From assembly GCA_030710605.1 (NCBI GenBank), contig CP092882.1, positions 18,100,316 through 18,164,315 on the forward strand: a DNA stretch of 64,000 nt, read 5' to 3'. The DNA is from Cordylochernes scorpioides. Its lineage: Eukaryota > Arthropoda > Arachnida > Pseudoscorpiones > Chernetidae. This document shows positions 1,847-62,700 of this stretch, one piece after another. The notes below the pieces were generated by a model. It was given only the letters and a program-made list of their open reading frames with translations. It had not been told where the DNA came from and made no database searches. Each line of letters starts with the position of its first letter. Within the stretch, counting starts at the first letter, position 1. Made by a program: the position numbers and the translations under genes.

Positions 1847-4800
1847 CTGCAGGTCACGTGTCCATTAACGACCGTTAAAGACTAGCCAATGAGGAAGCTT
1901 ACCCCAGCAGCCGCCGAATAGCACGCAGCCTGATTGGCCGGAATCAGAATGGGGTGAGCGTACATCACGGGGTATCCTCCCTGCTATATACAAACCGACC
2001 ATCAGTCTCTTTTGATATAAAAACTCAAGTTTAAAATATATTTATAAAATAAGATATATTTAATCACCTTAATTGTAACAACGAAAGTTGATTTATGCTC
2101 AATCCGGCGCAAAATCAAACACTTCATACATATCTCCATTTTTTATGGATACACACGTATGGTATTGAAAAATACAATTTAATATCTTCTGGGCGAATAT
2201 TACAAAAAAAAAAGGCATTTAAAAGTCAAAACATATTCAAAAGAAAATTTGTGCCGCAGCAAAACTAGCAACTCTTCGCGAAGAAAAAATTGTCAAGACA
2301 GATTGCGCCTTTTTTTATCCCAGATTAAACTAATAGGATTAATGAAGAACATTTCTTTTTAGCCCAGTAGAACATGAATTTTAAAACAGGAGATCCTTTT
2401 AAGACAAATTTTACTCAAGTAATGTACCCTTCTAGCAAAGATAAATTTACTGATACGATTGTAAAAAAAATCCTGCTAGAAGTTAACAAGCTCGTTTTCA
2501 GAGATTTTGCCAATATTGATTAATCACCTTGAGGAAGATCTTAATTCTTGAAATAGAAAACTGTAGGATTTTGTATAATCTTGATAAATTAAGTTTCCTT
2601 GATATATTGAATATTACTTTTCAATCCCAAAAATTAGAACATTAAACTAGGAAAAAAAGTTTGGCTGTAAATTTTTTGAAAAATTTAAGATCTCGCTGGG
2701 AGTATTGTTCTGCGCCACTTAGGCCATCTGATCTACTTTATATATACTTTCATTTCTAGTCTAGTTAGCGCATTTGTCCCCATTGTATACGTAATAAACA
2801 TAGCTTATAGTTCATATAGTTACTGTAGGACGACTGTTAGCGCGTCTATAGCAGAAGATTCCTGGCCAAAAGTTCAAATCCGGGCATTGTGTTTTTAAAA
2901 CAAAAATTTCAGCAAGTTTAAGGGTTACCTCTTTTAACCTATTTTAATGATTTCGCAACATTTTGGCGACATTTCCATGGCACACGACAGCTTTAGTCAT
3001 CGCAAGAGAATGTGCCATGCTACAAAGAGGAGCATCAAAGTTCTGGCAGAAAAAGGCCCAGCCTGACTACTCAAATAAGTAGTAAAGATGACAAAACGCT
3101 ATCTACTATAAAAAACCTATATAAATTATAACGCTAGCTTGTAAATATATTCATTAAAATTTCTACATTATACGGCAATATAAATTGAAGAAAGAGCATA
3201 GCTCATCGGTTGTGAATCCTTCTAGTGGTTTCGCCAGTTTAAAAACCAGACAGTTCTATTGTATTACTTGTAATATAGTCCATTATAGAATATAGTATAT
3301 TGTTGGTTAAGAGAAGTATGGACATATGCTTCTAGGACTAAAACATTATACCAGAGTTATGTAAATAAGTTACCTGTGAAGCCACGTAGTAGTGGCCGGC
3401 TTGGGGTGACGGGGGACAGCTCAAAGATGATTCACTGGAGGAAGCAGAGCTCAGGACGCCACTGGAGTAAGATATAGGGCTGACGTCTGACAAAATAAAC
3501 CACATCACCTTCTGTTCTACGAATTTTCGAAGAATAAATTGTTCTTGATCAATAATAATCCTTTAGAATAAAATTGTGTTAAACTTAAGGTTATGTTTAA
3601 TCTATGTATACTCCATGTAAGAAAATAAAACGATATTTGTACTGTGAAAATAGAATAAAAATGAAATTGTACAGGGATCAGGTGAATAAATTAAGAAAAA
3701 GGCATCAAACGATTAGGAGATGGTATTTTTCTTAATATTTGTACTGTTGTATGAAATGTGAAGAATGTTCTTAATAATAATAATTTAGATAAAATTGTTT
3801 TAAAACTTAAGCTTATGTTATCTATGTATACTCTGTGCAAGAAAATAATAATATAAAACTATATAATTAAATATAAAATCTGTTTAATGTTTGCTTTTTA
3901 GTTTTAACTAATGCTTTAAAGAAATAGAACCTTTCACCATTCAATATATTTCGTGCAGTTCAAGTTTCGTACTATCTTTTCTATATATCACACAAGTGCG
4001 CACAAGTGCGTAAAATAAACTACAAATAAATGACAAAAATAAATGTATTAAAAATCAAACAATGTTTAAAATGTAGATGGAATTAAGATTAATGAAAAAA
4101 AATTATTGAAAAAATAATGGTATTAATAGGACGTTTCTCAAATTGAGATATGTATATATGGTAATTTAAACCAACAACCCCATATTGTATATAACTTATA
4201 ACAATATTTTCATGTTATATAATTGAAACACATCTGTAAATGATTATACGCATTATTGACAGGTGTCACTACATCATCATATGTAATGTACGGTGTACAA
4301 ACTGAGGATAAATACATAAAACTCTAATAGATTAAGAGTTGAGCTGAAGCAAGAGATAGAAGTCAGAAACGTCTAAAATCGAGATAGATGTAACAGTTAC
4401 AAAACAACAAAGGTCTAAAGATGGAAACTGTCAGGACGGCGCCAGTTTTAGAATTTCACCAGACGATGATCCATCCTCTTCACATCTGGTGAAATGCAAT
4501 GCTCCCTTTCTCAGAAAAGGTATATAAAAGGCCCCCGTCTTTAACCAAAAATACAGTCACTTGACAGTCACTTCATCTGCGTGAGCCCTCGTCGGTTGTA
4601 CCCCAGGTCCTCCTCATCCACCATGTAGTCAGTAAGAACTCTTCCATCTCCATCTTTCGCTCCTAGCTCAACTTTTATCCGTTCACTGAACTTTCTTAGT
4701 GCAACTGTGTCTTCGTTTTTTGTGTGGACATTCCCAGCTTTCCACTCTGCCTCGACCACGACTGCCTGTACTTTGTGAGAACTATTAAAGGTCTTCCAAG

Positions 4801-20206: not shown

Positions 20207-20310
20207 ATTGATTTAAACTGACGAAACTGCTGGAAGGGTTCTCCACTGATGAGCCAGGCCCTCCCAATAATTTTTCCATCACAGAAAAGACAGTAGGAAA
20301 TTGATTTAAT
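20207..20310 (+). ncRNA. Permuted hammerhead repeat, relic copy
   Basis: ATTTAAACTGACGAAACTGC, GGTTCTCCACTGATGAGCCA, GGCCCTCCCA. Core CTGATGA and GAAA are intact but there is no GCGGT upstream, so helix III cannot form. Confidence 0.65.
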
Positions 20311-22769: not shown

Positions 22770-23030
22770 TTATGGACGCGTATGATTCTTCTTTAACAAT
22801 CTTCAAACAAATGGTAGATTGGAAATTAGAAACTATTATAGACGCGTAAGATTCTTTTTGAAATTAAACAATTTTTACTGCCCTTACTGCAATGGAAAAA
22901 TTAATAGGAGGGCCTGGCTCATCAGTGGTGAACCCTCCCTTCATTTCCCATTGCAGTAAGGGCAGTAGAAATTGTTTAATTTCAAAAATAATCTTACGCG
23001 TCTAAAATAGTTTCTAATTTTCATAACAGA
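22770..23030. repeat. Inverted dimer of the permuted-hammerhead unit
   Basis: TATAGACGCGTAAGATTC on the left is matched by AATCTTACGCGTCTA on the right. Inside, CTACTGCCCTTACTGC faces GCAGTAAGGGCAGTAG. The minus strand carries GTTCACCACTGATGAGCCAG; the GAAA strand is missing, so the core is incomplete. Confidence 0.7.
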
Positions 23031-23057: not shown

Positions 23058-23225
23058 TGGTAGATTAAACTGGTGAAACTGCTGGGAGGGCTTACCACTG
23101 ATGAGTTAGGACTTCTCATTAATTTTTCACATTGCAGTAAGAGAAATAGAAAATTGTTTAATTTTTTAAAAATTATCATACGCGTCTATAATAGTTTCAA
23201 ATTCTCATATAAAAAAGAATCCCTT
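23058..23225 (+). ncRNA. Permuted hammerhead unit, 5' end at the predicted cut
   Basis: Starts TGGTAGATTAAACTGG directly after unrelated sequence (TTATATAAA), then TGAAACTGC, TTACCACTGATGAGTTAG. Stem II pairs CTGGT with GTTAG through wobbles. The GCGGT strand is absent, so the copy begins where the family's predicted cleavage falls. Confidence 0.7.
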
Positions 23226-23830: not shown

Positions 23831-23907
23831 GGTTCTTCTGGAATACCCATTCCAAGAGTCTTACAACAGTCACCTATAAAAGAAAGTTCCAAAAATGCAA
23901 TATAACA

Positions 23908-23973
23908 GCGGTATGGTAGATTAAACTGGCGAAACCGCTGGGAGGGTTCACCACTGATGAGCCAGGCCCTCCC
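23908..23973 (+). ncRNA. Strand-permuted hammerhead ribozyme, C-G subfamily
   Basis: Strand order is GCGGTA^TGGT, AGATTAAA, CTGGC-GAAA-CCGC, TGGGAGGGTTC, ACCA-CTGATGA-GCCAG, G, CCCTCCC. Stem I is TGGT:ACCA, stem II CTGGC:GCCAG, stem III ACCGC:GCGGT. These surround all conserved hammerhead core bases (CUGANGA, GAAA, A15.1-U16.1, H17 = A). Canonical hammerheads join these strands in the opposite cyclic order, so this fold is pseudoknotted. A fourth helix, GGGAGGG:CCCTCCC, also crosses. Catalysis is inferred; the caret marks the predicted cut at 23913/23914. Confidence 0.6.
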
Positions 23974-25429: not shown

Positions 25430-25625
25430 AAATTCGAAACTATTATAGACGCGTATGATTATTTTAAAAATTAAACAATATCTACTGCCCTTACTGCATT
25501 TGAAAAAAATTAATGGGAGGGCCTGGCTCATCAATGGTGATCCCTCCCAGCGGTTTCGCCAGTTTAATCTACCATACGCGTCTATAATAGTTTCGAATTT
25601 TCATAAGAGATGGCGCGCTAATGCA
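25430..25625 (-). repeat. Permuted-hammerhead unit, head-to-head dimer
   Basis: Core on the minus strand at 25576-25514 (TGGTAGATTAAACTGGCG, AAACCGC, ATCACCATTGATGAGCCAG, GCCCTCCC). Here C3 is T and the GCGG strand is replaced by the 3' end of another unit (TACGCGTCTATAATAG). The junction lies at the predicted cleavage position. Units end AGATGGCGCGCTAATGCATC. Confidence 0.7.
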
Positions 25626-29100: not shown

Positions 29101-29257
29101 AAATAAAAAAAAATCGCGTTATATAGTTACCGTTTTCACTTACAGATAGCCCGTTATTTCATTATACATAAATTATTTAGCGCGTGGTTGTATGTTTCTT
29201 TTCCCTTCTTCATATAAAACAATTTCCTACTGTCCTATATAGCAATGAGAAAAGCAT

Positions 29258-29320
29258 TGAGATCCTCATCAGTAGTGAACGCTCCCAGCGGTTTCGCCAC
29301 TTTAATACACTATACCACTT
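29258..29320 (-). ncRNA. Permuted hammerhead repeat, relic copy
   Basis: The minus strand reads TTAAAGTGGCGAAACCGC and GTTCACTACTGATGAGGATC. GAAA and CTGATGA are intact, but stem II and the GCGGT strand are lost. Confidence 0.55.
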
Positions 29321-33922: not shown

Positions 33923-33989
33923 GCGGTATGGTAGATTAAACTAATGAAACCGCTGGAAGGGTTCACCACTGATGAGCTAGGTCCTCACA
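33923..33989 (+). ncRNA. Strand-permuted hammerhead, decayed stem II
   Basis: GCGGTA^TGGT, AGATTAAA, CTAAT-GAAA-CCGC, then TTC-ACCA-CTGATGA-GCTAG. Stems I and III and the core are intact. Stem II reads CTAAT against GCTAG, consistent with CTAGC/GCTAG decayed at a CpG, a further compensatory state versus CTGGC/GCCAG. Preceded by the family leader TTTTAGAGCTCTAAAAAGCG. Confidence 0.55.
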
Positions 33990-36779: not shown

Positions 36780-37256
36780 AGAGCGACAAAGTCCGTCGGC
36801 CACCCAACGCCTTCATGATCTTCGCGCAGGAGCACCGGAAGCGGCTGTGCCAGGAACACCGCGAGGAGAGCAACAAGGCCATCAGCGTGCGACTAGGTAT
36901 GATGTGGAGAGGTCTGCCAACCTCGGTCCGTGAGCGGTACTTCGACCGCGCGCGCCAGGCGACGCGAGAGCACCGCCTGAGGTACCCCTGGTATGTGTAC
37001 AACCCCCGGGAGGCGCGGCTGAGGAAACAAGGACTTCTGGGCGGGGCCAGACCACCGTCTACGAGAAGCTCCTCCCCTCCGCGCCGTCAGCCCACCCCCG
37101 TCCCGCCCCCTCCGCCGCCGGAGGTGGTCCTAACGGAGGACACACGCCGCAGTATTCGGGACGCCGTCGCTCTAGGGCTGGGCTTTGTCGGCCCTCAGTC
37201 CGCCAGTCACGTCACGCCCCTGGGGGAGGAATGGACGTCGCAGATCTATTTCATTG
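36780..37256 (+). CDS. SOX-type HMG-box exon (SoxH/Sox30-like)
   Basis: Acceptor gtccag; frame starts SDKVRRPPNAFMIFAQEHRK. A complete HMG box of about 75 residues follows: MNAFM-like PNAFMIFA, ISVRLGMMWRGLP in helix 2, REHRLRYPWYVYNP and REARLRKQ at the end. The RYPWYVYNP ending recalls Sox30 (FPGWVYQP) more than SoxB-F (YPNYKYRP). A Pro/Ser tail (PTPVPPPPPPEV) and LTEDTRRSIRDAVALG follow. The exon ends ATT-G|GTAGGT, phase 1, so more exons exist. SOX proteins bind the DNA minor groove; Sox30 acts in spermatogenesis. The exon is very GC-rich against the background. Confidence 0.85.
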
Positions 37257-37328
37257 GTAGGTCTCCCTCTTACCTCTTATTTACAATATTGTCTGGACAA
37301 TGTTTGGTATATTACCTCCCACTATCGA

Positions 37329-37760
37329 CTATCTTTGTAAACTCAAACCTCCCACTAGCGACCACCTTTGTAAAATTCAAACCTCCCACTAGCAACCACC
37401 TTTGTAAAATTCAAACTTCCCACTAGCGGCCCACTTTTGTAAACTCAAACCTCCCACTAGCGAGCACCTTTGTAAAATTCAAACTTTCCACTAGCGGCCC
37501 ACTTTTGTAAACTCAAACCTCCCACTAGCAACCACTTTTGTAAAATTCAAACCTCCCACTAGCGGCCCACCTTTGTAAAATTCAAACCTCCCACTAGCGG
37601 CCCACTTTTGTAAACTCAAACCTCCCATTAGCGACCACATTTGTAAAATTCAAACCTCCCACTAGCGGCCCACTTTTGTAAACTCAAACCTCCCACTAGC
37701 GACCACCTTTGTAAAATTCAAACCTCCCATTAGCAATCAGTTTTGTAAAATCAAAATTGA
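37329..37760 (+). repeat. 34-bp minisatellite in the SOX intron, about 12 copies
   Basis: The unit is CAAACCTCCCACTAGCG(A/G)C with CACCTTTGTAAAATT or CCACTTTTGTAAACT. Two variants, GACCACCTTTG and GGCCCACTTTTG, alternate over much of the array, so the higher-order unit is 68 bp. It starts about 70 bp after the exon donor. Confidence 0.9.
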
Positions 37761-37764
37761 CTCG

Positions 37765-38420
37765 GAAATATACTCCAACCTCCAATGAAACCATCTCCAG
37801 AAAAACCAAGAAATATCTCTTGTTTTCAGATAGTGTCTCATAGGTGATTCTGCCATATTTGCATATTAAGATATAAACTTTAAGATTAAAATATTAGCCA
37901 GCTAAACTCTTAAGAGAACCTTAATTATCAATGGATAAAAAGTGATATAGTGACCTCTTTTGTTCTGATATTAATTAAAATCTACAAGAAGCGAATATGA
38001 CTACAGTCGATTCCCCATTTAAGACTGGGAGACCATAAATGGCATGTCTTAAATCCGATTCACCTCTGATAAAAGAGACCCTCTCCCAATTTCAATTTTC
38101 ATCATTGCGCAGAATGAATAGTTTTTAATTATATATTAAATAGGGCGATACAGATAAATAAATCTTGATTTTATTAATTGCATATATATTGGATAAAAAA
38201 AAAAAAAGAATTAAATTTTGGTTTAAAAAAATCTTTTTGGCCCAATATAGCCTTTTTATATAAGAATTATGAATATATATATTCCTGTAAAAATATATTA
38301 AAACAGTGCATTTTGGTTCATCAGCCTGCCCGGTAATGGTAAAGCCACAACTCCAGAAGGCATCTCTTTTTGTATATACATGAATACTATCCACTCGCAA
38401 CTTTGTTATATGGATATATA
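37765..38420. other. No gene recognised
   Basis: AT-rich, presumably SOX intron. GCCCAATATAGCCTTTTTAT at 38240 is a P4-like trace. Confidence 0.4.
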
Positions 38421-44920: not shown

Positions 44921-44987
44921 GCGGTCTTGGGGATTAAATTCACAAAACCGCTGAGAGGGCTCACTACTGATGAACCAAGCCCTCCCA
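44921..44987 (+). ncRNA. Strand-permuted hammerhead, decayed
   Basis: GCGGTC then TTGGGGATTAAATTCAC, AAAACCGC, GGGCTCACTACTGATGAACC, AAGCCCTCCCA. GAAA is now AAAA and stem I is weakened. The leader AAAACTCTAAAAAGCGG matches the 33923 and 53586 copies. Confidence 0.5.
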
Positions 44988-45129
44988 CTATTTTTCATTG
45001 CATTAAGGACAGTAGAAAGTTTGCTTGTTTCTTTGTGAAAGAAACATTGTTACTTAATTTACAAATTTATATACATAATAGGTATATATAGAGCTATATA
45101 GTTAGTAGTAACAACTAGGTAACCCAACT

Positions 45130-45490
45130 GCGCCTTTGCCGGTCCCAAACCCGGATGAAAAAGGAGGAGGGGAGCAGTAACAAGCTCACTAAAAAACCTG
45201 GGTTCAGCTGTCCCGGCTGATAGTACCCTGTAAGGGCTCCAGGGATACAGAATGAGCAGCGTTTGTACTCCTTGTTAGGAGCCGCTGCACATAACGTCTG
45301 TTTCTCATGTCAGAGACGGGCATTTCTTTTGGAGCTAAGTCGACCTGCCAATGAGTAATGCTCCCAGAGTAATGACAAAGGCAGACGTATTTCACTTCAC
45401 CCAGTCAAGATGGTTGTCAAACAGACACCATCAAGGGTCACAACTTGATACCCTAATATGATTGAGTGGAGATAATAAAGAAGAAGACTA
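45130..45490 (-). repeat. Dispersed repeat family R1, inverse copy
   Basis: CGCCTTTGCCGGTCCC, CCTGGGTTCAGCTG, ATACCCTAATATGATTGAGT, GGAGATAATAAAGAAGAAGA. Inverse of 24475-24840. Confidence 0.7.
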
Positions 45491-49257: not shown

Positions 49258-49772
49258 TGTTGGACTGTTCTCAGCCATCCTTCGACGTTTCTGAACACGA
49301 ATTTTTAGAAATAATCACGCTCAACGCCCGCGGTATATCTGGAAGAGAAAGAGAAGATTACTTCTGCAAATGGACGAAGAAGCTTAAAGCAGACATTTAC
49401 GCTATACAAGAAACAAACAAAGACCTATTATTATCGAGAAAAGAATTTGAAAACTACGACATATATGCAAATAAAAAAAGCAATTGCGGAAGCGGACAAT
49501 TTATTATTCTAAATCGCACAATTCCTAACGAAAACTTCAAAGTTATCAAAAGCGGAAAGATCTGTGCGATCGAATGCACCTTGAAAAGAAAACTCGTTTT
49601 ACTAATAAATGTACATGTTACGCACAATCCGGATGAAGCTTTTAACGACTTTACCTTGATTGAACGATATATTGAAAATTTCCCGAACGACACGTCCAAA
49701 ATTATACTTGGAGACTTTAACATACGAGATAAGCCTGGAAGAACGGACTCGCAGAGAAAGAAAAAATGCTAA
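49258..49772 (+). CDS. LINE ORF2, endonuclease N-terminal part
   Basis: Apurinic-like endonuclease start: ITLNARGISGREREDYFCKW, IYAIQETNKD, INVHVTHNPDE, KIILGDFNI. The catalytic Asn, Glu and Asp-Asn positions are present. The likely start is MLDCSQPSFDVSEHEF at 49258; an earlier ATG at 49083 would add hydrophobic residues from AT-rich sequence. The frame breaks at TGC TAA (49770); the +1 frame continues smoothly (KEKMLNDFKRK). Confidence 0.75.
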
Positions 49773-52570
49773 ATGATTTTAAAAGAAAATATAACCTAAT
49801 CGACGCATTTAGTTATCTTAATCCGGGAATTCACGGGGTCACGCACTTCGCGACTGTGAACGGCACACCTTTTGAAACACGCATCGACTATATCTTAACT
49901 ACGCCCGATTTAATAAGAAACTTGGAAGAATGCAAAACATTATCTTACTCGCTATCTGACCACAACGCTATCATCGCCCGTTTAAGCACCGAGAGAATGA
50001 AGTTAGTGCGAAAAATTGACAGACGAATATTTACCTCCCGCCTCTTCGATGACATATATGCTTTTGAACTTGAAAACTTTTATTCGAACTATATGAATTT
50101 AAACGCAATTGCTAAATGGAGATGTATAAAAAGACTTATTTTGGAAGTTGCTAATGCTTGTCTGAGGTATACGGTCCCAAGGCCGATGGGTCACAAGCCC
50201 GCTATTACTTCGCTTTTTAACGAGAACGACATACTGCTGACCGATAATCGAAATATTTTAAATTATATTTTTAAACACTACCGCGATCAATCTAGAGCCG
50301 ACGAATCTATCAATCTAAACGACACCGTAACGTATACAAATACTATCCCGCGCCTCGACATCGACTTCAACTTCGATGAACAACACTTTATAACGAGAGG
50401 CGACATAATTAATGCAATTAAGCAACTTCCCAATAAAAAGATGGCTGGAGAAGACAAGATTCCCGCGGAATTTTATAAAAAATACCCGAACGACGCCGCA
50501 GATCTACTTCTCACGATATTTACTAATGCTCAAGAGGAAGAAGAACTACCTGAACATATGAGAGTGGGGAGGCTGAATCTCCTACCAAAGAAGCCGAGCC
50601 CAAAGACGTTGGGTGAATGGAGACCTATCACGATGATGAACACAGATTATAAAATCTTGTCGAAATTATTACTCGCAAAACTTAAACCTTACTCCCCGCA
50701 AATTGTTCCTATTGAACAAAAATATGCAATTATGAATAGGTCAATATTCGACATACTCCCTGATATCGAATACAGCGTCTACGCGGCAAACCTCCTCAAC
50801 ACGCCCCTCGCGATTGTCGTCCTCGACCTACAGAGGGCGTTTGACTCGCTCAACAGAAACTTCCTAATTGCGACTCTTGAGAGAATCGGTATACCAAATA
50901 TATTTATCAAATGGATCAAGATAATCTTGAACAACAGTGCAATTAAGATTGACGTAAATGAAGAAACCTCTCCATCCATACAAGTGACAAGGGGAGTTCG
51001 TCAGGGCTGCGGGCTGTCGGCGGTACTGTTCTCGATCTCCACGACGGCTTTAATCTTTCACTTACGAGACAAACTGAGCTCCACGACCACGACGCACATT
51101 TACGCTGACGACCTGGTGTTCTTAATTAGAGACGAAAGCGACTTCGACCGAATATACTCCTGTCTCCAAGATTTTAAGCGGGTCTCCGGCATAAATATAA
51201 ACTTTGGGAAAAGCAAAGGGCTGTGGTGTGGCAGCTGGGGCAACAGAACCGACACTCCGAGAGAAATTAAGATGAGGAGAGACCAAATCAAAGTGCTTGG
51301 CATCTTAGTTGAAAACTCAAAAACGCCCTTCAAAACGGAGAAAGAAAACCTGCGCGAAGAATTTCAACAAGCGGTGCGTGTTGTTAAATCCCATATTTCG
51401 TCGCTCTCGCTTATACAGAAGACGCGATATATTAACGAAAGATTGATACCGAAATTTACATATAAAATAAACGCGACTCTACCTGAAGACGTAATCCTCA
51501 ACGATATACAGAAAGATATTGATGTCGCCTTATACCTAAATACAACCTGGACAAATTCCTCAATAAATTGTTTACCTATCGAGAACGGCGGCCTCGCTTT
51601 GCTCCACCTCGCCACGCAACGCGATTTATTCACGTTAAAACGTATACAAAAGCAAATTAATGGACATCAGAACGAAAACGAATTTCTATTTGAGAACAAA
51701 AATGCGACCAACTACTTCAATCTTTTTAATTACGATCTACACGGATTTTTCTCACCGCGAAGAAAACAAATTTTAGCAAGCTGGCGTAACATCGTTCATA
51801 AATTTAATATTGACTTCAAGCAGCTTTCGCGAAAAGATTATTTACACCTCGTTATACCGAAATGCCGCCTCTTACACGGCCTTTATCTACAGAACTCTGC
51901 CGTCTTCAGCACAAGAAACTTGAAACGCCTGAAAGATTTTATAGATACGAAAGACGAAATGCGCGAGGCAAATGATCTATTTTCCCATGCCACGCGAAAT
52001 ATCCGAAACGATCTACAACGAATTGCCGAGTTTTACAACCAGACGAAAAACACGACTTTTAAACTTCAAGACCATTCTTCCTGCGTGCATCTTCCCATCG
52101 TTTACGAATCACGCCTTTTCTCACGTATAAAGAGTAACGCACTACGAAATATAATTTTATCGACCAAATTTAACTTTAAACGCGCTGAAGAAAAAGCTGC
52201 AAAGTGGAATTTCAACACTGCGCCATCCTGGCATAAAAAACGTAACATCTACGACGATATCGCCTGGAGACTGAAATTAAGAGCCCTGCCACACCCGACC
52301 AGGAATGGAAGGCCCACCTGCACTGCGTGCGGAGGATCTCCAGACATACTACATCGATACCTAGAGTGTGAATTTACGAAAAAGAAAATAAAAGAAGCTA
52401 CTGAAGAATGTCGGATTGTCGACCGCTTATATATCTTCAGCCCAGCCAACTTCATCCTAGACCGCAGAAATCCAGAATTACGTCGAATTTTAAACAAGAA
52501 GAAATACGAAATTTACAAATATTTTATAGAGATAGATTTTAATTGTACCCCCTCCCCCACTAACAATTGA
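49766..52570 (+). CDS. LINE ORF2, endonuclease end, reverse transcriptase
   Basis: 934 residues. EN finishes with FETRIDYILTTPDL and SLSDHNAI. RT fingers GEDKIPAEFYKKYP; EWRPITMMNTDYKILSKLL; palm LDLQRAFDSLNR (first Asp at about 354); GVRQGCGLSAVLFS; IYADDLVFL at about 446 (catalytic Asp pair); thumb GLWCGSW. A C-terminal zinc knuckle CTACGGSPDILHRYLEC lies at about 851-867. The DYKILSK wording places it near L1/Tx1. No stop for 934 codons, so RT could be functional if the EN frameshift were absent. Performs target-primed reverse transcription in the nucleus. Confidence 0.92.
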   Translation: MLNDFKRKYNLIDAFSYLNPGIHGVTHFATVNGTPFETRIDYILTTPDLIRNLEECKTLSYSLSDHNAIIARLSTERMKLVRKIDRRIFTSRLFDDIYAFELENFYSNYMNLNAIAKWRCIKRLILEVANACLRYTVPRPMGHKPAITSLFNENDILLTDNRNILNYIFKHYRDQSRADESINLNDTVTYTNTIPRLDIDFNFDEQHFITRGDIINAIKQLPNKKMAGEDKIPAEFYKKYPNDAADLLLTIFTNAQEEEELPEHMRVGRLNLLPKKPSPKTLGEWRPITMMNTDYKILSKLLLAKLKPYSPQIVPIEQKYAIMNRSIFDILPDIEYSVYAANLLNTPLAIVVLDLQRAFDSLNRNFLIATLERIGIPNIFIKWIKIILNNSAIKIDVNEETSPSIQVTRGVRQGCGLSAVLFSISTTALIFHLRDKLSSTTTTHIYADDLVFLIRDESDFDRIYSCLQDFKRVSGININFGKSKGLWCGSWGNRTDTPREIKMRRDQIKVLGILVENSKTPFKTEKENLREEFQQAVRVVKSHISSLSLIQKTRYINERLIPKFTYKINATLPEDVILNDIQKDIDVALYLNTTWTNSSINCLPIENGGLALLHLATQRDLFTLKRIQKQINGHQNENEFLFENKNATNYFNLFNYDLHGFFSPRRKQILASWRNIVHKFNIDFKQLSRKDYLHLVIPKCRLLHGLYLQNSAVFSTRNLKRLKDFIDTKDEMREANDLFSHATRNIRNDLQRIAEFYNQTKNTTFKLQDHSSCVHLPIVYESRLFSRIKSNALRNIILSTKFNFKRAEEKAAKWNFNTAPSWHKKRNIYDDIAWRLKLRALPHPTRNGRPTCTACGGSPDILHRYLECEFTKKKIKEATEECRIVDRLYIFSPANFILDRRNPELRRILNKKKYEIYKYFIEIDFNCTPSPTNN

Positions 52571-52603: not shown

Positions 52604-53044
52604 TTGCTTTTGTTCTGACTTTTATATATGTTTATAGGAATATATTTATTTTATGGTCCCCTATTGAAAAAATCCAAAATGATATTTTTAATGCATTGTA
52701 CCTCACAAAATATCCAACTATCGATAATTTTTGTTATTTTACATCATCGACTCGTATATATTAATCTATTAAAGCTAATTTTCCAATAATTATCCCACTT
52801 ACAACAATGGTTTTATATTAAGAAACTTAAAGAAAAGTTATATTTGTCAGAACGATCTCTGGATACCGACTTTCCTTGCACAATATCTATTTGATTATAT
52901 TTGATTTTATTAAATTCCTGAATTTCTCCGCAAGCATTATTCTTATATTCTATTTTTATAAAATAAAAGGATTTAAAAACGCGAATGTTTCTTCTATACA
53001 TAAAACGAACTTCTACTGTCCTTACTGCGATGAAAAAAATATAT

Positions 53045-53111
53045 TGGGAGGGCTTGGCTCATCAGTGGTGAACCCTCCCAGCGGTTTCGCCAATTTAATC
53101 TACCAGACCGC
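53045..53111 (-). ncRNA. Strand-permuted hammerhead, U-A subfamily
   Basis: Minus strand: GCGGTC^TGGT, AGATTAAA, TTGGC-GAAA-CCGC, TGGGAGGGTTC, ACCA-CTGATGA-GCCAA, G, CCCTCCCA. All core positions are intact. Stem II is TTGGC:GCCAA, the compensatory partner of CTGGC:GCCAG at 23908. H17 is C. Confidence 0.6.
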
Positions 53112-53418
53112 TTCTCAGAGCTCTAATACTGTATTGGATCATTCTGCTTTTATATGCTACACTGAAGGATGGAATCTTAGAAATGGTTTTCAAGTAAACT
53201 ATGGACATAAGTTTATAGGACAGTAGAATTACATTCAAATATTTGCTTCGAGCAATGCTCTTCAGCAAACTATAAAGACAAGGCCATTAGGAATAAATTA
53301 ACACAAAGCAATAACGCGCCATCTATACATATAAAATAAAAGGATTTAAAAACGCGAGGATGTTTCTTCTATACATAAAACGAACTTCTACTGTCCTTAC
53401 TGCGATGAAAAAATATAT

Positions 53419-53466
53419 TGGGAGGGCTTGGCTCATCAGTGGTGAACCCTCCCAGCGGTTTCGCCT
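53419..53466 (-). ncRNA. Permuted hammerhead, truncated copy
   Basis: Minus strand begins TAGATAGGCGAAACCGC then TTCACCACTGATGAGCCAAG. The GCGGTC^TGGT strand is missing. Mirrored at 53803-53850. Confidence 0.6.
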
Positions 53467-53585
53467 ATCTAAACTGTCCTATAAGCTTATGTCCATAGTT
53501 TACTTGAAAACCATTTCTAAGATTCCATCCTTCAGTGTAGCATATAAAAGCAGAATGATCCAATACAGTATTAGAGCTCTGAGGA

Positions 53586-53652
53586 GCGGTCTGGTAGATT
53601 AAATTGGCGAAACCGCTGGGAGGGTTCACCACTGATGAGCCAAGCCCTCCCA
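53586..53652 (+). ncRNA. Strand-permuted hammerhead at the palindrome centre
   Basis: GCGGTC at 53586-53591, TTGGC at 53604, GAAA, CTGATGA at 53632, CCCTCCCA at 53645-53652. Complete core. It overlaps its minus-strand mirror copy, sharing the GGGAGGG...CCCTCCC centre. Confidence 0.6.
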
Positions 53653-53683
53653 GCGGTTTCGCCAATTTAATCTACCAGACCGC
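53617..53683 (-). ncRNA. Mirror copy of the central permuted hammerhead
   Basis: Reverse complement of this interval has GCGGTC^TGGT, the GAAA strand and GGGAGGG intact; its CTGATGA-side sequence is replaced by the inverse arm, so only part of the core can form. Confidence 0.45.
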
Positions 53684-53802
53684 TCCTCAGAGCTCTAATA
53701 CTGTATTGGATCATTCTGCTTTTATATGCTACACTGAAGGATGGAATCTTAGAAATGGTTTTCAAGTAAACTATGGACATAAGCTTATAGGACAGTTTAG
53801 AT

Positions 53803-53850
53803 AGGCGAAACCGCTGGGAGGGTTCACCACTGATGAGCCAAGCCCTCCCA
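53803..53850 (+). ncRNA. Permuted hammerhead, truncated mirror copy
   Basis: TAGATAGGCGAAACCGC, TTCACCACTGATGAGCCAAG; mirror of 53419-53466. Confidence 0.6.
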
Positions 53851-54099
53851 ATATATTTTTTCATCGCAGTAAGGACAGTAGAAGTTCGTTTTATGTATAG
53901 AAGAAACATTCGCGTTTTTAAATCCTTTTATTTTATATGTATAGATGGCGCGTTATTGCTTTGTGTTAATTTATTCCTAATGGCCTTGTCTATATAGTTT
54001 GCTGAAGAGCATTGCTCGAAGCAAATATTTGAATGTAATTCTACTGTCCTATAAGCTTATGTCCATAGTTTACTTGAAAACCATTTCTAAGATTCCATC

Positions 54100-54155
54100 C
54101 TTCAGTGTAGCATATAAAAGCAGTATGATCCAATACAGTATTAGAGCTCTGAGAA
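54100..54155 (+). promoter_or_regulatory. Candidate promoter/leader of the permuted-hammerhead element
   Basis: CATATAAAAGCAG (TATA-like) lies about 45 bp before GCGGTC, followed by CAATACAGTATTAGAGCTCT. The same layout occurs before the 53586, 53045 and 33923 copies (ATATATATAAACAG, TTTTAGAGCTCT), so the leader is part of the element. Confidence 0.4.
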
Positions 54156-54222
54156 GCGGTCTGGTAGATTAAATTGGCGAAACCGCTGGGAGGGTTCACC
54201 ACTGATGAGCCAAGCCCTCCCA
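54156..54222 (+). ncRNA. Strand-permuted hammerhead, U-A subfamily
   Basis: Identical in core and stems to the 53045 copy: GCGGTC^TGGT, TTGGC-GAAA-CCGC, ACCA-CTGATGA-GCCAA, CCCTCCCA. Followed by TTTTTTCATCGCAGTAAGGA, CAGTAGAAG and, at 54315, AGATGGCGCGTTATTGC. Confidence 0.6.
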
Positions 54223-54319
54223 ATATATTTTTTCATCGCAGTAAGGACAGTAGAAGTTCGTTTTATGTATAGAAGAAACATTCGCGTTTTTAAATCCTTT
54301 TATTTTATATGTATAGATG

Positions 54320-55440
54320 GCGCGTTATTGCTTTGTGTTAATATTCTATTTTAAAAAAGAAAATTTAGCGAAAATAGATAGTATACAAATATTCTGAACA
54401 ACTTCCAAGATTGGAGCCCAAACTATTTTCCAACTTCTATAATCCACAATGAATATTACATCACCAGGACTTAGACTCCGCTATTCTTTGAAATTGCAAA
54501 TCTTATTCGATTCAGAGTGAAAATTTGGCCAGCTATCATTCAAAAAGACATTTGTAACAAAGAGATGGACAATTGATTCGAAATCCTTGTAAAAATAAGA
54601 CATCAAAACCTTGTATTCAAAAAGTGTCATATCAAACTTTGGTAATATAACCCTTAAAAAAAGAAAAAAAAAGCACCACTAAACACTTATGATGTTTTCA
54701 ACAATTCGTCAAATTAATCGAATAATTTTTGGGGACCTTTATGAAATCAGTAGATTACGCGAAATATGATTTCTATTTGAAATTTCTTCAAAATCATCAC
54801 CAATTTTTGGCATGTTTAAAAACTGGAGGAATATGAAAAGTTCTAGGAATGTTCTAAAAAACCTTTTAATGGATCAGAATCTTTGCTCCACCGCATCACT
54901 ATTTCTTACCTCCTTTATCAAAGAATAATGGTCTCCTATTTACTCTTCCTAAACACTGACGCTCTATTACATATAAAGTTTAACAACTATATTCCAGGGA
55001 TAAAGTGGATGTGTGGTCGTATTAGTATTAGAACTATTTCTAATTTTGTATTGTAAAATATCGGAGCCACCTAAAAGTAAAATATTATGGAAAGAGCTTT
55101 ATATAACAAGTGTATTTAACATCAACTTTGGATAAAATTTTAAAACATATTTTCTTTCTTGATATTATTTTTTTAATGAAATGCACTAATAACGACACAT
55201 CAATTTATTACATTATAGCTGGTATTCCGAAGTTATAGCTTCCATTACGCTCAAATTTTCAGAAAAGTGTTTTACTATTTCCTGTCTGGCTTACATAAAT
55301 ATCATCAATCGATAATGCATTAGACTTTAGAGTATACAATATCATATTTTAGATTACATAGTGAAAATGTAAATTTTGAAATAAAATTTATTAATCAGAA
55401 TGTTTCTTTTTCAAATAAAGCCAACATTCTATTGGACTTA
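54320..55440. other. AT-rich stretch, nothing recognised
   Basis: No exon, repeat family or RNA identified. Confidence 0.4.
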
Positions 55441-55452
55441 GGCGATGAAATA

Positions 55453-55520
55453 TTGGGAGAGCTTGACTCATCATTGGTGAACCTTCCCAATAGTTTCGCC
55501 AATTTAATAAACCAGACCGC
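55453..55520 (-). ncRNA. Permuted hammerhead, older copy
   Basis: Minus strand: GCGGTC^TGGT, TTATTAAA, TTGGC-GAAA-CTAT, TTC-ACCA-ATGATGA-GTCAA. C3 is A and stem III is broken; leader TCTCTAAAAAGCGG is present. Confidence 0.6.
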
Positions 55521-59700: not shown

Positions 59701-62700
59701 CGGGGCTCTGGCACATTTGTAAGTGCAAAGTCGATCTGCTTTTCACATGTGTAGACATGTGGTGCACTTACAGTAAAAGCAGTTGCCTACTTCTACCCAC
59801 CATGATTATCATGGCCTGTACCACGTGTACTAGGGATAAGCAAAAAAAAAAAAATCCAAATTGTGCTTTATCATACAAGAGAGGTAGTGAGGGAAGTTTA
59901 CAGAGAGAGTAACAGAATATAAATATAAAAATTTGCTAATATTATAATCCCTTTGGTGTAAAATTATAAATAAAATACAATTCTCACTGAGGGAAGAGAG
60001 AATTTTTTTTATCACAACAATTAAAGCTTTTGGCTGTAACAGCTCTTCAACAGGTATTATTACTATATTAAAAAAAAGGTATTATGGTGTGTGTGTGTGT
60101 GTGTGTGTGATAAAAAAAAAAGAAATTTTTCTCTCAACAAATTGTATTTTATATATAAATCTAAAAATTGATACAGTAGAACCTCCCTTTAGCAGACACC
60201 TCTCTACAAAGGACAGTTTTCATTTTTAAAATTGCCATTTTTACAATTTAGCAACTCTCTGGTAAGAGGACACCTCTCTCTAAAGGACACTTTGGCTCTG
60301 TAATTAGGTGTCCTTTAAAGGGATATTCTACTGTAATCTGTTAATGAAATGATGAACATGTTTGGTACAATATATTTACTACAGTGTGTGTGTGTGTTGT
60401 TGAGCTCAGGAGTTCCATGAGTTGATCACAGCATCCTCTAAGTTGGCAGAAGACACCAACAAGGAGAATGCCAGAGATCTCCAGGGGAGAGAACAGTCCT
60501 CCAGATGTAATACCAAGGAGAGTACTTTGGGGCTGGGAATCCACAGTGCTGTGGTGAAAAAGACAGATTTAAATGATGCACCACCAGCATCAGCAAGGGA
60601 CAAACCTTTCAACTTCACCCCTCAGCCAAGAACTCCTCTGTACTCCCCCATCCACAGTGTGACTGTACAGCGCTCCAGCCTGGATGTCCTCCCACACACT
60701 CCTCAGAGAAAGAGAGCGTTCAATGAGCAGCCGTCAGCCACTCACAGTAAAGTACAGAGGGTGGACAGTTCCCCAGTTGTCAAGACAGTGCTGTCTCCCT
60801 TCAACCTCCCTGCAGTCAGAGCAGACACTCCCAAGAGGAAGTTTCCAGGGCCAGCCGGACTTCTGCCTCGGTTGGTAGGTTTGACTTGAGGTGTTTGACC
60901 CTGGTCCTAATCCCCCCTGTTGTAGCCATCTGGGAGCAGCCTGCAGTCTCTCCGCACCAAAGCATCCTCCACAGAACTTATCCCAGATGCACCTGCTCCT
61001 ATCCTAGAGGTAGGCCTTCTATTCTACCACCAAATGGCCTTATTTCATCACATCCCCTATCTCTAAAGTACCAGAACCCCACACCAAGAGCATGTGCAGA
61101 AAATGATCAATCCATTATGGAATAGCTAGGTAGATTTTAAGATATGAATGCGATACCTTTTTGTTTTCATAGAAATTTAGTGAAAGAAGTGGGGTATTTT
61201 TTTGCTAATGCAAAATATTGTTACACCAGGTTGTAGTTTTGAAAGGTCATCGACCTTGATTTTTTCCTCCTTTGTGTAATATAAGTTATACATTTATATG
61301 TTTCTTGACCAGGTTTCTATAATTAAAGAAAATGAAAAATACCTTATTGTTATGTTTATTTATTTGTTATTCTCCAAGTCTTTGCATCCATTCTCACGCC
61401 GACATTCAAAGTGGTTTGTCATCACCTTAGCATCAACAAGTGTATTTGCCAATAAACACACAAGGGGGTCGGTGGAAGGATGGTCTAAACCGTTTGGTTT
61501 TCAACCACTACGACCCGGGTTCGATTCCCGCATTGGACACTTTCTGATTTAAAAAAAAAATGCTCCAATGACCCCCGATTCTTGCAAAAGTCCAACCCCA
61601 GCTGCGAGTGCAAGTAACCAAACGGGGCTCTGGAATTAGTAAGTGCAAAGTCGAACTGCTTTTCACATGTGTAGACATGTGGTGCGCTTACAGTAAAAGC
61701 AGTCGCTAACTACCCACCATGATTATCATGGCCTGTACCACGTGTACTAGGGATAAGCAAAAAAAAAAACACACACATAGCTGTATACACTTTAATAATG
61801 ACTGGTATACTGCTGATTCCATTTTTTTTTGTTTGTTTCAATAAATATTTCTTGATCTAGGCCAAGGATTTTTTATAAATAAACTTTGAAATAGATGTGA
61901 ATCTCCTAGATATTAATTAAATAATGCAACAGGTTTCTGGAGATGTGTTTATTTTGATTTTTTTATTACATTCTCAAGCTTTCGGACATTTCTGCCTTAC
62001 TACAGGATTATGAAATGAACAATGATGAAACTCTGTCAGATGCTAACTAGCTCCTATAGAATCCTATCCTGTAGAAGGGCAGAAATGCCTAAAAACTTGG
62101 GAATGCAATGGAAAATCAAAAGAAACTCATCTCCAGAAGCTTGTTGTTCATCATTTGATCAATAAATAAACTTCATAATTATTTTGACAATACATATTTA
62201 TTATGATATATATCATCAAAATATTATCACTACATAACTTACTGAGGGTTCACCACTGATGAGCCAAGCCTTCAAATAATTTTTATCGTTTCAGTAAATT
62301 CTGTAGAGATGATATTTTGATAATATATATCATAAGAAACATTCTTCCAAAAAAAAAGGCAAATGGAATTATAATTATATTTTATTAATATGCAGTTCAC
62401 TTATTTAGCATAGTGTCTTGCTACTCCCCCACAATTATGATAATCACGAGTTTCTCATTATTTAGGGAAACCAGTGTTTCTTGAAATTTTGACATGCCTT
62501 CAAGAAAATAAGACCTAGTCCAAATAAATTAATAGTGTGTGACGTTTTGGGAACAACGTTGTTACCATCATCAGACAAAAGAATTAATGACTGGGTATAG
62601 GGATTGAAGTAAACATGGATTCATTGAATTTATTCTTTTGTCTGATGATGGTAACAACGCTGTTACCAAAACGTCACACACTATTAATTTATTTGGATTA

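Follow-up and report, generated by a model that had tools for sequence, protein, structure and literature searches.

Probable type-SGC hammerhead ribozymes in an abundant, retroelement-like repeat of the pseudoscorpion Cordylochernes scorpioides

An abundant repeat in the genome of Cordylochernes scorpioides carries a motif that is probably a type-SGC (non-circularly permuted) hammerhead, with genomic copies predicted to cut themselves. Our main reading, to which we give a probability of about two in three, is that this hammerhead processes the RNA of a non-autonomous retrozyme/Penelope-like retroelement whose monomer is about 373 nt long. The connectivity itself is already known; as far as the literature searched shows, what is new is that type-SGC hammerheads are placed in a chromosome, in a probable host lineage and in an element. 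In the mostly open-access journal literature searched we found no report of a type-SGC hammerhead in an animal genome. Below, the window is the whole 64,000-nt stretch analysed (contig CP092882.1, positions 18,100,316 to 18,164,315; GC 34.8%) and the sample is 30 stretches of 10 kb from the same genome (300 kb, L003-L032), so that window and sample together make 364 kb.

The core at 23908-23973 consists of three strand segments, GCGGTA-TGGT, CTGGC-GAAA-CCGC and ACCA-CTGATGA-GCCAG, and a further helix, GGGAGGG:CCCTCCC, which we call helix X:

23908-23973, plus strand: intact type-SGC hammerhead core of 66 nt, subfamily A
23908-23912, plus strand: stem III, 5' strand
between 23913 and 23914, plus strand: predicted cut
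23914-23917, plus strand: stem I, 5' strand
23926-23930, plus strand: stem II, 3' strand
23931-23934, plus strand: GAAA
23934-23938, plus strand: stem III, 3' strand
23940-23946, plus strand: helix X, 5' strand
23950-23953, plus strand: stem I, 3' strand
23954-23960, plus strand: CUGAUGA
23961-23965, plus strand: stem II, 5' strand
23967-23973, plus strand: helix X, 3' strand

Here and in the other intact window copies, stem I has 4 bp, stem II 5 bp, stem III 5 bp and helix X 7 bp, and the conserved nucleotides (CUGANGA, GAAA, UH at the cut, A15.1-U16.1 and G10.1-C11.1) are all present. The initial annotation had described a hammerhead in which the cleavage strand is followed by the GAAA strand and then by the CUGANGA strand, and most of that description holds. 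The three segments, H17 as A or C, both conserved pairs and stems I-III are found at 23908-23973 and again, intact, at 53586-53651 (plus), 54156-54221 (plus) and 53046-53111 (minus; given there as 53045), helix X is formed in all four, and the last pair of stem II is indeed U-A in these three copies and C-G at 23908. Stem III crosses stems I and II, stem I crosses stem II, and helix X crosses stems I and II; stem III and helix X do not cross each other. In pseudoknot-free folding of two copies only stem III and helix X appear.

The same annotation took this connectivity to be undescribed, which is wrong: it is that of the type-SGC hammerhead, named and shown to self-cleave in 2023 (PMC10085705). 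According to the accessible parts of that paper, Eckert et al. predicted 583 sequences (the HRIMA-1 motif and variants) with the strand order S-G-C, two core pseudoknots and a further helix that joins stems I and II on their other sides; of the candidates assayed in vitro, the five predicted to be functional all cleaved, and for one of these, SGC-3, disruption and rescue confirmed every one of the four helices (PMC10085705). The repeat agrees with the published type, as far as those parts describe it, in block order, conserved core nucleotides, stems I-III and the joining helix; it differs in the linker between stems I and II, which has 8 nt in the repeat family (and 4 in the unrelated core L021, below) against typically 3 (PMC10085705). 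The setting differs as well: the published sequences come from environmental RNA, and the same parts of the paper report none from genomes of known organisms (PMC10085705), whereas here the motif lies in a high-copy repeat of a chromosome-scale genome.

We searched the window with a strict descriptor that allowed all six block orders and required 4-bp stems, with 200 dinucleotide-preserving shuffles of the window as control. It gave exactly four matches (23908+, 53586+, 54156+ and 53111-), all in SGC order as claimed, and none in the 200 shuffles. The canonical orders CGS, GSC and SCG had no match in the window with this descriptor, whose 4-bp stems make it blind to minimal type-I hammerheads. 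Altogether 18 sites in the window score at least 38/66 against the consensus; apart from the four intact ones, the other 14 are decayed, rearranged or truncated. Besides the 23908 core, the copies and their arrangement include:

53586-53651, plus strand: intact core, subfamily C, at the palindrome centre
54156-54221, plus strand: intact core, subfamily C
53046-53111, minus strand: intact core, subfamily C
52949-54317, no strand: palindrome of 1369 bp with its turning point at helix X; it holds five copies, three intact and two truncated at the 5' end
33923-33988, plus strand: decayed core with a G-C to A-U change in stem II
25515-25580, minus strand: decayed core, stem III mostly lost, CUGAUGA changed to UUGAUGA
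55455-55520, minus strand: decayed core
44921-44986, plus strand: decayed core, GAAA changed to AAAA
24134-24199, plus strand: decayed core, 226 nt 3' of 23908 in the same orientation
29253-29318, minus strand: decayed core, deletion within the stem II/helix X region
3190-3255, minus strand: decayed core
20213-20296, plus strand: copy without the cleavage-strand block
23058-23170, plus strand: copy whose similarity starts at the predicted cut site
22843-22939, minus strand: foldback copy starting at helix X
62244-62297, plus strand: foldback copy starting at helix X

Because the three U-A copies share the one 1369-bp palindrome, the window alone provides two independent intact sequences.

The family is abundant, as had been proposed. 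An nhmmer profile built from twelve copies gave 18 matches at E<1e-10 in the window; the first 28 sampled stretches (280 kb) had 32 at E<=1e-3, of which 23 reached E<=1e-10, or about one per 12 kb. Extrapolated to five contigs (864 Mb) this would mean on the order of 70,000 pieces, though so small a sample allows only a rough estimate. Against the consensus the sample contained 20 matches. Those at L010 7404+, L010 7777+, L024 6641- and L029 4502- (the last with one G-U in helix X) are intact, and L024 6937+ has a single helix-X mismatch. Two subfamilies have intact cores: subfamily A, cut after A and with C-G in stem II (23908, L029), and subfamily C, cut after C and with U-A (54156, L010, L024, L023). 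An older subfamily has GAGAGGG:CCCTCTC as helix X, and no cleavage-strand block was seen in its copies (L030 9221, L024 8731).

Rfam at gathering score returned one tRNA and no hammerhead in the window, and only tRNA and U6 matches in the 300 kb of sampled loci. The sub-threshold HH9 and twister-P1 matches of a permissive Rfam scan all fell outside the SGC repeat and were set aside; the twister-P1 pair at 24778-24831- and 45121-45172+ (37.7 and 33.4 bits; gathering score 67.2) are two copies of one repeat. Scans of viral and prokaryotic contigs found no relative of the SGC repeat, and two viral contigs that matched a third search pattern had no CUGANGA nearby and were taken as chance. Also in the window, a 34-bp tandem array at 37294-37802 overlaps the end of an ORF (36815-37426) with an HMG-box match; as a protein query this ORF had no match.

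Since the copies are related, covariation within the family gives modest support. Alignment A1 comprised 18 full cores (14 distinct), namely 10 of the 18 window and 8 of the 20 sample matches, with truncated, inverted and gapped ones excluded; alignment A2 comprised 23 copies (21 distinct) over stem II and helix X only. In A1, 86.4% of the cells were paired, a value reached by 0/500 shuffles, and the covariation score of 0.176 was reached by 5/500; the five pairs changed on both sides were matched in 92/500 shuffles, the count of further pair types in 363/500, and sliding the partners by +1 gave a higher covariation score (0.186 vs 0.176). A2 had 13 both-sided cells (reached by 3/500) and a covariation score of 0.259 (1/500); its four pairs with a both-sided change were reached by 352/500 shuffles. 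We counted both-sided changes at stem II pair 5 (U-A, C-G), stem II pair 3 (G-C to A-U, 33923) and helix X pairs 2 and 3 (G-C to A-U). Two both-sided cells of A1 in stem I were alignment artefacts from the one-base-shifted copies 24134+ and 3255- and were left out. The copy at 33923, which had been said to point to a third state, has one more both-sided change, in the third pair of stem II, but the same stem also has a mismatch and a G-U.

A second core, unrelated in sequence to the repeat family, was found only after scanning all 364 kb with a generic descriptor, and it lies on the minus strand of L021 (2039-1976). This descriptor gave 12 matches, 10 in SGC and 2 in canonical CGS order, and none in the reversed sequence used as control. 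The L021 core is in SGC order and reads GCAGUA^AUGGA, GUAA, GGGCC-GAAA-CUGC, UGCUCAGGU, C, UUCAU-CUGAAGA-GGCCC-ACCUGAGUA; its helices have 5 bp (I, one G-U), 5 (II), 5 (III) and 9 bp (X, one G-U), the outer pairs being extended by eye. Compared by eye with the family, most pairs of all four helices differ yet stay paired. The core is single-copy in 364 kb. Without helix X the descriptor had 8 chance matches in 100 shuffles of the 364 kb and 24 in 700; with the full stem I and a helix X of at least 7 bp it had none in 700. We take L021 as the strongest sequence evidence that the architecture, rather than the sequence of one repeat, is kept, and with it the strand-permuted hammerhead reading is well supported.

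The repeat occurs as head-to-tail copies with promoter-like and tail-like parts. At L010 7298-7961 a dimer of period 373 (99.0% over 292 nt) holds two identical intact cores, with 373 nt between the two predicted cuts and an 81-nt spacer between the repeats. Its 373-nt monomer has a GC content of 36.7%, and the longest open stretch in the doubled monomer is 74 aa. This is the one intact tandem dimer in the sampled 300 kb, and the window has one partial dimer. The corresponding window features are:

53797-54342, plus strand: partial head-to-tail dimer, period 372 (53794-53970 vs 54166-54342, 98%)
54081-54119, plus strand: promoter-like stretch, conserved upstream block (54081-54107) and TATAAAA (54113-54119)
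23838-23907, plus strand: stretch ahead of the 23908 core that still aligns with the upstream block and TATA of copy 54156
54315-54322, plus strand: AGATGGCG tail motif; also 53943-53950, plus, and 53317-53324, minus

The 27-bp upstream block and the TATA are kept between subfamilies A and C, the flanking sequence is not, and together they are likely a promoter. A snRNA-type promoter, as in newt satellite 2, would fit block and TATA but stays a guess, as the U6-like sequences sampled are promoterless tandem repeats; they form an array at about 3950-4570 of L004 (minus), four of them above the Rfam gathering score. At L005 4168+ the block and TATA stand with no ribozyme after them. The ribozyme is followed by a T-run that could terminate Pol III transcripts.

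Target-site duplications (TSDs) were found around two copies: 13 bp in L023, where the left end of the copy is an inverted piece of its own right part, and 9-12 bp around a composite inverted element in L024. At L010 7202-8686 a host repeat is present twice, once with the SGC dimer and once without, a natural empty site; comparing the two gave no TSD and a small loss. When we asked whether insertions begin at the cut site, one window copy (23058) did so, whereas nine others, independent of each other, had their first base 5-8 nt further into the predicted 3' cleavage product.

AGATGGC follows the C of CUGANGA in 10 of 25 SGC matches, at 110-115 nt in eight and 125 nt in two, three of the ten lying in one palindrome; it is absent within 220 nt in the other 15, the 23908 copy included. 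Minimal type-I hammerhead matches, in repeats with no other relation to the SGC repeat, have it 117-123 nt after CUGANGA in 7 of 12 cases, and this like distance suggests that SGC and type-I hammerhead elements may share their mobilisation. The full AGATGGCG occurs 70 times in 364 kb, against an average of 5.2 for 200 shuffled 8-mers, of which the highest reached 55; that maximum makes clear that repeats inflate such counts. The motif is strongly over-represented across the window and L003-L032, where several repeats, with and without hammerheads, have it at their ends, in many cases as inverted pairs.

The minimal type-I hammerhead-like motifs lie in repeats at 41909-, 42523-, 25952+, 33400+, 39031- and 21434+ of the window, and at L008 9706-, L008 9386-, L020 6862+, L024 4838-, L029 6790- and L030 8236- of the sample; most have a palindromic stem III (ACGCGU or ACCAUGGU), and those of L008 form a tandem array with a 320-nt unit. 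These repeats resemble the SGC repeat in their tandem arrays, in the short inverted piece that closes the L008 array on one side, and in a AGATGGCG-type tail at a similar distance after CUGANGA (L008 9386-, window 41909-). Unlike the SGC repeat they are in canonical CGS order, and they have only weak sequence matches to the SGC monomer.

In the retroelement account that we prefer, the TATA-bearing block that precedes each ribozyme would drive transcription of head-to-tail copies; the RNA would fold into the pseudoknotted hammerhead and be cut after GCGGUM, and the unit-length RNA between two cuts would probably circularise. A reverse transcriptase acting in trans would then copy it, starting near the AGATGGCG tail motif, and the copy would be inserted, in many cases together with tandem or inverted pieces and with target-site duplications of 9-13 bp. 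Candidate sources of the mobilising enzyme in the genome are Penelope-type RT/GIY-YIG proteins and LINEs. A LINE ORF at 49766-52570 of the window (first 500 residues as query) has its two best protein matches in C. scorpioides itself (86% identity over 72%; 48% over 100%), and L022, L008 and L004 have Penelope-type ORFs for RT and GIY-YIG, the GIY-YIG match of L022 being below the Pfam cut-off. The core, the many copies, the tandem dimer, the two TSDs, the inverted ends and the common tail motif are observed. We counted against the account the nine starts inside the cut product, the presence of only two clean TSDs, the T-run, the tail motif missing in 15/25 matches and the modest covariation, as well as the finding, in the available text on a lizard Penelope-like element, that hammerhead cleavage is dispensable for its insertion in vitro (PMC11167929).

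As the accessible parts of the source describe them, metazoan retrozymes are non-coding tandem repeats of about 150-450 bp with low GC and a type-I hammerhead, expressed as circular RNA (PMC7229834). Like these non-LTR elements, the SGC repeat has hammerhead-bearing tandem units that are short and non-coding, is poor in GC and lies dispersed in an animal genome; unlike them, it has a hammerhead of type SGC rather than type I, and its sampled copies are mostly single, truncated or inverted (PMC7229834). Penelope-like elements with pseudo-LTR hammerheads share with it, in the portions of the source available, partial tandems, inverted pieces and tail-like ends, and the inverted AGATGGCG pairs recall the 'tail' and internal RT start of the lizard element; they differ in having an RT/GIY-YIG ORF, which the SGC element lacks, and a minimal type-I hammerhead instead of a permuted one (PMC11167929). 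These likenesses, and the Penelope-type ORFs of L022, L008 and L004, with SGC pieces 0.9 to 1.8 kb away, would also fit a repeat that is a pseudo-LTR or derivative of an autonomous Penelope-like element, so that the ribozyme belongs there and not to an independent retrozyme. We consider this unlikely, since the 373-nt monomer has no ORF, the L010 dimer spacer is only 81 nt, and no SGC match adjoins a Penelope-type ORF in 364 kb.

The many palindromic copies, several turning at helix X, and the inverted pieces at element ends are what would be seen if the repeat were a foldback or MITE-like DNA element and the pseudoknotted hammerhead a fossil or inverted-repeat by-product. Yet the TSDs differ in length and sequence (13 bp; 9-12 bp), the ends are variable with no constant terminal inverted repeat, there are head-to-tail dimers, and intact cores occur in two subfamilies and in a second, unrelated SGC sequence, all of which makes such an origin distinctly improbable. 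That segments of a conserved repeat pair by chance and resemble a hammerhead by coincidence is highly improbable: the intact window copies do collapse to two sequences and the family covariation is modest, but the 200 window shuffles gave no match, L021 is an independent second core, and the architecture agrees with a described and tested ribozyme.

The retroelement reading has a broader form, that non-circularly permuted hammerheads are working processors of a class of animal retroelements, freeing unit-length, probably circular RNA from tandem transcripts, with one AGATGGCG-tail mobilisation machinery in common with the type-I elements of the genome; we put it forward tentatively, at somewhat less than even odds. 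If it were true, such animal elements, and not viroid-like agents alone, could be the source of some type-SGC sequences in environmental RNA. Type-SGC hammerheads were the earliest natural case of a non-circular permutation in RNA. Their presence at high copy in a chromosome places them in a host, leaves a record of their evolution in copies both intact and decayed, and offers a role in retroelement processing that can be tested; the occurrence of two unrelated SGC cores in one genome bears on whether such permutations arose once or repeatedly.
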